This document shows positions 48,690-53,368 of a stretch of 64,000 bases of DNA, one piece after another (position 1 is the stretch's first letter; each line of letters begins with the position of its first letter). The DNA is from an uncultured bacterium (GTDB lineage: Bacteria; Bacteroidota; Bacteroidia; CAILMK01): the NCBI GenBank assembly GCA_903829945.1, contig CAIKRV010000044.1:21370-85369 (forward strand). The letters are read 5' to 3'. Below the pieces are notes generated by a model. That model did not search any database. It was not told where the DNA came from and saw only the letters and a program-made list of their open reading frames with translations. Both the position numbers and the translations under genes were made by a program.

Positions 48690-49751
48690 ATGAAAAGTAT
48701 TAAATCATCAGGCAAGAAGTCCTTATTGATGGCAATCACGGCCATATTATTTTGCAATGTTATCCTTGCCCAACGAAGTTTTGACCCCGGGAAGAAAGAA
48801 GCTACCAAGGCATTTAATCGGAAAATGATTTTTGTCATCAAGGACATCAATTCTAAAAAAAGTAAAAACAACAAAAACATTGCACTATGGGAATTGTATA
48901 ACAATACCCTGAAAAATGCAGTTAAAACATATTGGAAATTTAATAAAGAATATGAATTTAAAACTGTTGCTGAAGTAAATGAATTAAAAAAAACCAATAA
49001 GAAAGATTACGCCGTATTATTTTTTAAAGATTATGGCGGGGAAGATATCACAGTATCACAAAAATTTCAGTCGCCGGTTTCAGGCACTCGTTATACAGGT
49101 GGATTGGGAGCCAGAGCAGTGCTTTATTTTAGTTTACTTGAAGACTTTAAAGCCCTTAACTCGAGCGAAAATGAACACGGCACTACAAGTTTACCGATGA
49201 TCATTTTACCTCATTCTAGAATAACGGAGGAAGATGTTTATTCCACTTTGCTTTTAGCCCAAGGAATTCTATTTTTCCAAATGCAGGACTTATCAAAAAA
49301 TGAATTGGCGCAAAATAAAAAAAGTAATCTTGAAATTTTAAAAAACAAAACCTTATTAATCCCGAATGATTTATTAACCTCCTCAGCAAAGCCTGAAAAG
49401 AATTATCCCTATAAATCTATGGTAATTCCGGAAAAAGATATTTATTCATATTTTGAGAATCCTGACTCTCAAAATGTGATTTTGGAGATTTTCCCATTAT
49501 CTCTTTATGTTTCCCCACATAACAATAATAATCAAACGCAATCGAATATTCAGACAGCTTATTCAACTCCGGAGGGTGAAAATGATTGTTTTTTTTACTT
49601 TGTATTTGATTTAGCTAGCGGTAAAATCCTTGTTAATTCCAATAACCTTGAAGGAACGTATTATGGTTATTCTATAATTAAAGGTTCATACAAATTTGCT
49701 ACTTCTAAAAGCAAACTCGATGCTTATTTGATGGAGGATTTGACTAAATAA
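48690..49751 (+). CDS. Secreted hypothetical protein
   Basis: Signal peptide (..FCNVILAQ); no family recognised. Confidence 0.55.
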   Translation: MKSIKSSGKKSLLMAITAILFCNVILAQRSFDPGKKEATKAFNRKMIFVIKDINSKKSKNNKNIALWELYNNTLKNAVKTYWKFNKEYEFKTVAEVNELKKTNKKDYAVLFFKDYGGEDITVSQKFQSPVSGTRYTGGLGARAVLYFSLLEDFKALNSSENEHGTTSLPMIILPHSRITEEDVYSTLLLAQGILFFQMQDLSKNELAQNKKSNLEILKNKTLLIPNDLLTSSAKPEKNYPYKSMVIPEKDIYSYFENPDSQNVILEIFPLSLYVSPHNNNNQTQSNIQTAYSTPEGENDCFFYFVFDLASGKILVNSNNLEGTYYGYSIIKGSYKFATSKSKLDAYLMEDLTK

Positions 49752-49883
49752 AGGGATTGGGTTTAAAAATAAGTTTAGATTACTAATAATTGACTGATTT
49801 AAAAGAATAAATTACATATTATAATATGATCTCATTTTATCAAAAAGCTTGTAGCACTTATTTAAAAACAAACTGTTAAAATT

Positions 49884-50471
49884 ATGGACTTTATAGCAAT
49901 AGATTTTGAAACTGCAAATAATTATAGAAGCAGTATATGTTCTATGGGAGTTGCAATTGTTGAAAAAGGCAAATTAGTAGGGACAGAACATTTTTACATT
50001 AAACCTGCCCCAAATTATTATGAAAGTTTCAATACAGAATTGCATGGCATTTGTGATGTAGACACAAAGAACAAGAAAACATTTAAACAACAATGGAAGG
50101 AATTTAAACAATATTTTGACAAACAAATTTTAATTGCGCATAATGCCTCTTTTGACTTTAGTGCGTTACGATATGCTCTTGACGAAGGAAAATTACCTTA
50201 CCCGGATTTGGATTATCACTGTACCTATCGCTTGTCTCAGGTTTCATTAGACTTACCAAGTTATCGATTAAATGATGTTTCATCATATTTCAAAATTAAA
50301 TTAAAACATCATAATGCTGAAAGTGATGCTAAAGCTTCTGCATTAATTGCTTTAAAATTATGCGAAAAATTTAAAGCAGATTCATTAGAAGAATTATCAA
50401 GCAGTTTCGGCTTCAGAACTGGAAAGATTTTTGGCAGGTTTAAAACTTATAATCCATATTCAAAAATATAA
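49884..50471 (+). CDS. DEDDh 3'-5' exonuclease (DnaQ/RNase T superfamily)
   Basis: FIAIDFETAN, LIAHNASFDFSAL, HHNAESDAKAS motifs. Confidence 0.92.
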   Translation: MDFIAIDFETANNYRSSICSMGVAIVEKGKLVGTEHFYIKPAPNYYESFNTELHGICDVDTKNKKTFKQQWKEFKQYFDKQILIAHNASFDFSALRYALDEGKLPYPDLDYHCTYRLSQVSLDLPSYRLNDVSSYFKIKLKHHNAESDAKASALIALKLCEKFKADSLEELSSSFGFRTGKIFGRFKTYNPYSKI

Positions 50472-50474
50472 TTT

Positions 50475-51833
50475 ATGGAACTTCACCCAACTGATCATAT
50501 AAAACTATCTGACCTTCTAGAAGAAATTGATTATACAATTAAGAAGCATTTTGATAAGGAGTATTATTGGGTTTCTGCACGAACAATAAACGTAAAAAAA
50601 TATGAAACTGTTAGACGCTGTTACTTGACACTTGAAGAAATAGAGAATCAAAATAAAAAAGCAGAAATTAGAGCGGTTTTTTGGGCGAACTATTATCATG
50701 AAATAGAAAGTTTTGAGAAACTAACAAAGCAAGAATTTAAAGATGGAACAGAAATCATTTGTAAAGTCAAAGTAAGATATCATAAGATTTATGGACTTAA
50801 CCTCGATATAATTAAACTTGATTTTGCACATACACTTGGGCTAATTGAAATTGAAAGGATCAATACACTTGAACGTCTAGTAAAGGAGAATCCTAAAATA
50901 ATTAATCTTTTTGAGGGTAATTATAAGACTTTGAATAATTGTTTACGTATTCCACGAATTTTTACAAAAATAGCATTAATTACTGCCCCAAATTCAGATG
51001 GGCAAAGAGATTTTCTACAAGAATTGAAAAAAAACAAACATGGTTATACGTTTTCTGTAACTGAATATTTAACAACAATGCAAGGTGAAACAGCAAGTAA
51101 ACTAATTCTAGAACAACTTGAAAATATAAAAAAAAATAAAGATAAATTTGATGCTGTTGCTATAGTTCGAGGTGGAGGTTCGCTTGGAGACTTAAAGCCT
51201 TTTGACAATTACGACCTTGCGAAATATGTCGCAAGTTTTCCAATTCCAATTTATACAGGCATTGGGCATGATCGAAATCAAAGCATAGTTGATTTAATGG
51301 TAAGAGAACAAAAAACACCAACTAAAGTTGCCTCAACTTTTGTTGAACAAAATTTTACATTTGAAAACAACCTAATTGAAGTTAAAAATAAATTTTTCGT
51401 ATTGGTTGATGAGATAATTAAACAGGCAATTGAGGATATAAAAGATGCGAAAAGTATTATTAAACTTTCAAGTCCTCAAGCAATTCTTAACAGAGGTTTT
51501 GCAATTATAATGTGCGGAAATAAAATTATTATTGACCCAAAATCAATAAATATAAATACAGAATTAAAGACTCTATTAAAGGGCGATTATATACATAGTA
51601 TTGTAACTAAAAAAACTAAAAATGGAAAAAAATTAAATTATAATACCGCATATCTCAAGCTTGAGGAAATTATTGATCAATTGGAGAATGGAGAAATTCC
51701 GATTGACAAACTTGGAGAAAAAGTAAGGCAGGCAAATGAACTAATTGAAATTTGCGAAAATAGTCTGCGTAATATTCAAGAAGAAATCAAAGCAACTACT
51801 AAAAATAAAACGACAAGACAGCGAAAAAAATAA
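50475..51833 (+). CDS. Exodeoxyribonuclease VII large subunit-like protein with C-terminal XseB-like domain
   Basis: IALITAPNSDGQRDFL, AIVRGGGSLGDLKPFDNYDLAKYVASFPIPIYTGIGHD, SPQAILNRGFAII; then LNYNTAYLKLEEIIDQLENGEIPIDKLGEKVRQANELIEICENSLRNIQEEI resembling XseB. Confidence 0.85.
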   Translation: MELHPTDHIKLSDLLEEIDYTIKKHFDKEYYWVSARTINVKKYETVRRCYLTLEEIENQNKKAEIRAVFWANYYHEIESFEKLTKQEFKDGTEIICKVKVRYHKIYGLNLDIIKLDFAHTLGLIEIERINTLERLVKENPKIINLFEGNYKTLNNCLRIPRIFTKIALITAPNSDGQRDFLQELKKNKHGYTFSVTEYLTTMQGETASKLILEQLENIKKNKDKFDAVAIVRGGGSLGDLKPFDNYDLAKYVASFPIPIYTGIGHDRNQSIVDLMVREQKTPTKVASTFVEQNFTFENNLIEVKNKFFVLVDEIIKQAIEDIKDAKSIIKLSSPQAILNRGFAIIMCGNKIIIDPKSININTELKTLLKGDYIHSIVTKKTKNGKKLNYNTAYLKLEEIIDQLENGEIPIDKLGEKVRQANELIEICENSLRNIQEEIKATTKNKTTRQRKK

Positions 51834-52006
51834 TAACCACAATCGTGATTGGACATTGACATTAAAGTAATAAATATAACGCGCTCAACCTACTTCTCTA
51901 AAAATAAGAGTACATTTCGAGTCTATACAATCAGGTACCGCTTCCACAGATAACCCTAAGCTAAAAAGATCAAAATACTACAATAATAAAGGGGTCATAA
52001 ATATCT

Positions 52007-52474
52007 ATGTATTACAACAATAAATTCTTCTGTAGCATTAAAACCTATTTTCTACTTTTCATGGTTTTAACTTTATTGTCATGCACAAGTACTAAGCAAA
52101 TAGCCAATTATCAGACGATAAAAGACTGTCGATCTAAATGGATTTTCAAGGACCTTGAAATGAAAGATAGTATTAAAATATTATTAATTGAATACCAAAT
52201 GAGGAGAGACCTTGTCTATTTTCCAAATTTTATAATAGGAGTAACGAATGATGGTGATACAATAGGAGTACTTGACAGAATAAATCATGACATTCATGAT
52301 TTTGGTCAAAAAGGAAAACGGATAAATATAATTCCGTCCAGATGGTCTGAAGAAGAAAAGAACAATAAAAAACCAGTCTTTAGAATATATAAAGATCCCA
52401 ATGATTTTAATTTAATTTGTAGAGCATTGACAATATATTATGGTGCCATAGAAATTAAACCATTAAATAATTGA
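52007..52474 (+). CDS. Hypothetical lipoprotein
   Basis: Lipobox-like MVLTLLSC. Confidence 0.5.
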   Translation: MYYNNKFFCSIKTYFLLFMVLTLLSCTSTKQIANYQTIKDCRSKWIFKDLEMKDSIKILLIEYQMRRDLVYFPNFIIGVTNDGDTIGVLDRINHDIHDFGQKGKRINIIPSRWSEEEKNNKKPVFRIYKDPNDFNLICRALTIYYGAIEIKPLNN

Positions 52475-52645
52475 TTAGCTTTCAAACCAACCTATCTAAG
52501 CTCGAGAGTTAAGCAAAGTACTATCTTGCGTATATAATCTGACGTCACCAATGGGTGTCAATCTTTGAAAATTTTTCGTACGCGTCTATATTGCAAATCC
52601 ACTTGATGCCTATGATACAAAGGTCATCAAATTAATTAATGCAAA

Positions 52646-53368
52646 TTACTGTGTATAATAAAATGCATTAGTTTGCATATATGGAGAAACCCATTTATTA
52701 TTTTGGTCCATATACTGAAATTCCTTTTGTGGCATTAAAAGGACCTTAAATATAAAAAATGATTGATCAATCCGTAATTCCTTTTCCATTTTTTCAGTTA
52801 ATGAATAAGTGATAAAATTTCGAAGCACTAAAGGAGTATTTGAATTAGTATAGGTCCAAGTAGTAATATTTTTCTTTTGATCTTTTATACCATTTTTCTC
52901 ATTGAATCCCCAATAGGTAAAATTACTCAAATCAAAACCATTCACATCAAAGTTTGATAATGGAGCAATAAATGTAATTCTATCCAAATGAATTATTACT
53001 CCATTAGATTGAGTATTGCTCATACTTAATTTTCGCTCTTTATTAATGTTTATACCGGAAGAATTTGAATTAATTTTATCCTCATCCTGCCAATACGGAA
53101 TACTGGTATTTCCAACAATCAATGAACTTTTTTTCCAATCTATATATATTGGAACATTAAGCTTATTGGTAATAGTGAATGAAAATTTCCCTCCATTGGC
53201 CCACATATTATAATTTATTTTGAGGGTATCATTTTCGTAGGTCAGTTTTGTAGTGTCACTTGTTATGGAATTAGAGCGCACGTAACATACATATTGAGAA
53301 GAACAGCTACTTAATAAAATTAAAAAACCAAACAAATATTTCATCAGTAGATTTATTTTTAAAAACAT
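52646..53368 (-). CDS. Hypothetical lipoprotein
   Basis: Lipobox-like FGFLILLSSC. Confidence 0.5.
   Translation of the reverse strand: MFLKINLLMKYLFGFLILLSSCSSQYVCYVRSNSITSDTTKLTYENDTLKINYNMWANGGKFSFTITNKLNVPIYIDWKKSSLIVGNTSIPYWQDEDKINSNSSGININKERKLSMSNTQSNGVIIHLDRITFIAPLSNFDVNGFDLSNFTYWGFNEKNGIKDQKKNITTWTYTNSNTPLVLRNFITYSLTEKMEKELRIDQSFFIFKVLLMPQKEFQYMDQNNKWVSPYMQTNAFYYTQ

Follow-up and report, generated by a model that had tools for sequence, protein, structure and literature searches.

A fused xseA–xseB reading frame one base away from a two-gene exonuclease VII operon in an uncultured Bacteroidota bacterium

Introduction

Exonuclease VII (ExoVII) of E. coli is assembled as XseA4:XseB24, with six copies of the small subunit XseB for each large subunit XseA. 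ExoVII genes are also found on phages and plasmids. In Acinetobacter, Pseudomonas and Vibrio, plasmids (L186, L187, L191, L192 and L194) have an xseA of their own, mostly beside an annotated small-subunit or short gene; two Pseudomonas plasmids have xseB ahead of xseA. The large and small subunits are encoded by adjacent genes in Gordonia phages (phage hits H43–H50).

Here we describe an ExoVII locus within a 64,000-nt stretch of one contig (the window) from the genome of an uncultured Bacteroidota bacterium. The source assembly comprises 2.9 Mb in 97 contigs, with a completeness of 99.99. At this locus a DEDDh exonuclease gene is followed by a single reading frame that joins XseA to XseB, and we compare this arrangement with its relatives and with the E. 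coli complex.

Results

Domain content of the gene pair

Two forward-strand ORFs separated by a gap of 3 nt were read in the first-pass annotation as a DnaQ-type exonuclease and an XseA-like protein, and domain searches bear this out. The first (49884..50471) encodes a stand-alone DEDDh (DnaQ-like) 3'-5' exonuclease domain of 195 aa that matches RNase_T (PF00929, E = 1.3e-21); the DEDDh motifs DFETAN, HNASFD and HHNAESD, as read from the sequence, are kept. The second (50475..51833) is a fused xseA–xseB ORF of 452 aa. Its XseA part (aa 1–381, 50475..51617), as supported by Pfam, AlphaFold and Foldseek, contains an OB fold (aa 10–113), the nuclease core, a short helical arm and a C-terminal beta element. 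The fused ORF passes the curated cut-offs for tRNA_anti_2 (OB fold, PF13742; 43.6 bits, cut-off 27), Exonuc_VII_L (PF02601; E = 6.8e-44, 151 bits, cut-off 35.9) and TIGR00237 xseA (188.9 bits, cut-off 180). The catalytic histidine is present in the motif GIGHD, where H265 aligns to position 238 of 8TXR (E. coli H238), and it is invariant in an alignment of 27 relatives. The annotation had pointed out GHD in place of the usual GHE; the reading is correct but not particular to this protein, and GHD was rejected as a functional oddity because it is fixed in 57 of 57 clade members.

The XseB part occupies aa 388–452 (51636..51830). Residues 389–439 match Exonuc_VII_S (PF02609; E = 1e-10, 41.9 bits, cut-off 24), the ORF matches TIGR01280 xseB (39.4 bits, cut-off 35), and the C-terminal segment also matches the solved XseB structure 1VP7 (E = 0.0023). 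Since both the Pfam and the NCBIfam curated cut-offs are passed and the 1VP7 match agrees, the segment of about aa 388–440, which the annotation had already likened to XseB, can be firmly assigned from its sequence as a bona fide XseB.

An AlphaFold model of the fused protein, computed with the alignment of 27 relatives as input (XseA only), has a mean pLDDT of 84.8 and a pTM of 0.54. It places in order the OB fold, the nuclease core, one arm helix of 36 residues (aa 296–331, 51360..51467) and the C-terminal beta element, followed by a poorly determined linker (aa 384–387) and a two-helix hairpin (aa 388–451). The best solved match found by Foldseek is E. coli XseA in ExoVII 8TXR (E = 1.4e-21). 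Over the whole chain, the TM-score against this structure is only 0.32, which is unsurprising for an elongated protein whose arm differs in length and whose domains are placed differently relative to each other. The unusually short inter-domain helix noted at first pass is thus present in the model as a single helix, but compactness is a property of the whole clade and not of this protein.

The junction of xseA and xseB

The relatives fetched were 57 loci related to the window XseA, plus a further locus in genome G023. Full-length XseA proteins among them are 376–403 aa long, so the compact XseA is the norm of the clade, and in the XseA tree the window sits inside the ordinary clade. At every locus with downstream sequence in which an xseB could be located, this gene is distinct from xseA, most often overlapping it by 23 nt and otherwise by 4, 11, 17 or 20 nt; no XseA–XseB fusion occurs in any fetched relative for which the two genes were both identified. 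Among the matches listed from 161 Bacteroidia genomes with XseB, the window alone has XseB in an ORF of more than 210 aa, and no fusion was found in any of the others.

The fused frame retains what appears to be a remnant of the xseA/xseB overlap (51622..51643), as judged from the 23-nt overlaps of relatives and from frame computation. This segment reads ATGGAAAAAAATTAAATTATAA and holds an xseB ATG at 51622 and an xseA TAA at 51641–51643, both out of the fused frame. Between them, a run of seven A (51626..51632) is one base under the two-gene requirement. When one A is added to this run in silico, xseA becomes 389 aa long and ends KNGKKIKL, xseB becomes an ATG-started gene of 70 aa beginning MEKKLNYNTAYLKLEE, and the two overlap by exactly 23 nt. 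For comparison, in G023 xseA ends ...KNEKGIDL and xseB starts MKKELTFDKAF, again with a 23-nt overlap. As deposited, XseB has no in-frame start of its own near the junction; with one more A it is a separate gene. Because one added A restores the family layout exactly, the fused frame is one base from an ordinary two-gene operon. The fusion is thus most likely a one-base contraction of such an operon, whether by real mutation or by assembly error, and the idea of a distinct 1:1 fusion architecture is not upheld: one missing A explains the fusion, and no second long-ORF XseB occurs among the matches listed from the 161 Bacteroidia genomes.

In comparisons with relatives, pN is much lower than pS for each of XseA, XseB and DEDDh; for the window DEDDh against full-length trio orthologues, pN is 0.17–0.23 and pS 0.72–0.79. 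These ratios reflect long-term history and are blind to a recent lesion.

A second ExoVII in the genome

The first-pass annotation had proposed a search for separate xseA and xseB elsewhere in the genome, and a complete pair is present on another contig, C18 (xseA of 403 aa and xseB of 62 aa, overlapping by 23 nt). The window locus is therefore a second ExoVII copy and not the only xseA of its genome. Two copies per genome are unusual. Of the 161 Bacteroidia genomes with XseB, only the window genome and G328 have two XseB matches among the matches listed, and both of those in G328 lie near contig ends. ExoVII itself is patchy: of 389 sampled genomes, 228 lack any XseB match among those listed. 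These 228 include all three members of the window's own family that were sampled, two of them incomplete genomes.

The cassette has a GC content of 29.6% and a GC3 of 0.18–0.21, against 36.7% GC for the window and a GC3 of 0.33 for the C18 xseA. It lies in a low-GC stretch (48690–53368) with 28–32% GC per kb over most of its length, in which three ORFs (353, 155 and 240 aa) have no Pfam match over cut-off. The window contains no tRNA gene. In a comparison with genome G002 for an empty site, only an aldo/keto reductase was clearly shared; G002 is not syntenic and no empty site was shown. The cassette was possibly acquired horizontally, and its AT-richness is compatible with recent acquisition, low GC being weak evidence of transfer.

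Arm length in ExoVII large subunits

Arm length was measured as the spacing between GxGH and the C-terminal P..IL..G motif. The XseA sequences scored were L009–L028, L030, L033, L037–L093, L127 and L144–L194, together with the window (51258–51476). The window spacing of 72 is the shortest class seen and is shared by every scored member of its clade except the C18 copy (94). Across 102 Bacteroidia XseA in which both motifs were present, the spacing takes only the values 72/73, 94/95, 117, 139/140, 161/162 and 183/184; other records gave 163 (E. coli), 139, 117, 139, 140, 205, 117, 161, 118, 161 and 159. This stepped spacing, from 72 to 205, spans Bacteroidota, Pseudomonadota, Bacillota and Mycoplasmatota.

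The best-fitting period of 22.1–22.2 residues was reached by none of 2000 uniform simulations, a descriptive result given that related sequences are not independent. Bacteroidia arms with a spacing of at least 117 are self-similar at lag 22 (z = 22.9) and lag 44 (z = 20.5) relative to shuffled arms, and hydrophobic positions recur at fixed places within the 22-residue unit. In the E. coli arm alone the lag-22 similarity is weak (z = 1.7), so the repeat rests on the length steps and on the Bacteroidia arms. If the six XseB per XseA of E. coli correspond to one per 22 residues, a spacing of 72 would seat two. We tentatively suggest, as a model that may well prove wrong, that ExoVII enzymes are variable-length complexes built on 22-residue arm modules each seating one XseB, with six modules in E. 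coli and two in the window clade; the window protein would then combine the shortest arm with one covalently tethered XseB.

The DEDDh–xseA–xseB trio

A DEDDh gene lies directly upstream of xseA at six loci (the window, G023, L037, L040, L042 and L044), which are scattered in the XseA tree. The annotation had suggested a search for the pair across Bacteroidota; among the loci compared it recurs sporadically, in six genomes, and without common neighbours: the genes beyond the trio differ at every locus. In five of the six carrier genomes, all but that of the window, the trio is the only ExoVII detected. DEDDh orthologues 59–71% identical to the window protein are found in G023, G103, G119 and G066 and at L037, L040, L042 and L044; in G119, G103 and G066 the gene has no adjacent xseA. 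In G066, a single-contig genome, the orthologue (L126:9865-10460) is split into two overlapping frames, by a frameshift or an indel error.

For the 195-aa ORF, PADLOC returned no more than generic DEDDh and PDC-S48 exonuclease-domain hits, for the fused ORF nothing meaningful, and no conserved defence neighbours are shared among the trio loci. In our reading, the trio is an operon in which two DNA exonucleases are repeatedly paired, and not a defence module.

Discussion

Most probably the locus is an additional, otherwise ordinary short-arm Bacteroidota ExoVII operon (DEDDh, xseA, xseB) whose xseA and xseB frames were joined when one A was lost from the A-run in their short overlap. The artefact form of this explanation, in which the organism itself carries A8 with xseA and xseB as an ordinary pair and an error in assembly or base calling replaces the real lesion, deserves serious consideration, even if we do not favour it. 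The one-base difference sits in a homopolymer, undoing it gives back precisely the layout of the family, and the split G066 orthologue shows that indel errors or lesions occur in such data. Against this, the fragmentation and high completeness of the assembly point to accurate short reads, seven A make a short run for an Illumina-type error, and an unsystematic look at the large ORFs of the window revealed no other broken gene. The run could alternatively be in use, slippage yielding fused XseA–XseB plus free subunits from one gene, which we consider improbable. It reads A_AAA_AAA in the fused frame, so that a -1 ribosomal slip would end XseA at ...GKKIKL (the -1 tail, IKL-stop, is the two-gene XseA end), and RNA polymerase adding an A would restore both genes. 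A precedent exists in Citrobacter tssM1, where slippage of about 20% on an A11 run gives two required TssM forms (PMC4256274). However, A7 is shorter than that run, A_AAA_AAA is reported to shift far less readily in E. coli than A_AAA_AAG (PMC5009743), and relatives have not preserved an A-run at the junction, so that no conserved signal exists.

The first-pass annotation had raised the possibility of an accessory defence or mobile-element module, and we regard this as very unlikely. The second ExoVII copy, the patchy trio, the low GC, the unrecognised neighbours and the presence of ExoVII genes on plasmids and phages would fit such a module. On the other hand, the trio is the sole ExoVII in five genomes, its neighbours are neither common nor defence-related, PADLOC recovers generic DEDDh only, and the DEDDh gene is also found without xseA.

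The extra operon copy would be expected to process single-stranded DNA ends as ExoVII does, with the 3'-5' DEDDh exonuclease presumably co-expressed. Given a real lesion, translation in frame 0 would yield XseA with one XseB tethered at the arm tip. This product may be active in cis or be helped by the separate C18 XseB; alternatively, the lesion may simply be tolerated, the gene being redundant. Most likely a one-base accident, the fusion would serve mainly to caution that an indel in a homopolymer where genes overlap can mimic a new domain architecture, and the arm-length steps matter more. If XseA arms do grow in modules of 22 residues, the ratio of the ExoVII subunits could be deduced from sequence, and enzymes of the short-arm clade would be small complexes suited to structural work.

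Among the systems most similar to this locus, the G023 operon (L033/L008) has the same three genes in the same order and the same arm class of 72, with 70% identity in DEDDh and 51% in XseA; it differs in that its xseA and xseB are separate and form the sole ExoVII of its genome. The C18 pair (L030) belongs to the same family and has the 23-nt overlap, but it consists of separate genes without a DEDDh gene and with an arm spacing of 94, and its XseA is only 46–49% identical to that of the window. For the first ORF, the best NCBIfam model is that of PRK06195-type DEDDh exonucleases (E = 7e-54), although the 195-aa protein lacks the C-terminal region of the model and scores under its curated cut-off. 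With E. coli ExoVII (8TXR) the window protein shares the OB fold, the nuclease core, the catalytic GxGH histidine, the helical arm, the C-terminal beta element and the two-helix hairpin of XseB. It differs from it in an arm spacing of 72 as opposed to 163, in an XseB joined in frame to XseA, and in the DEDDh gene directly upstream.
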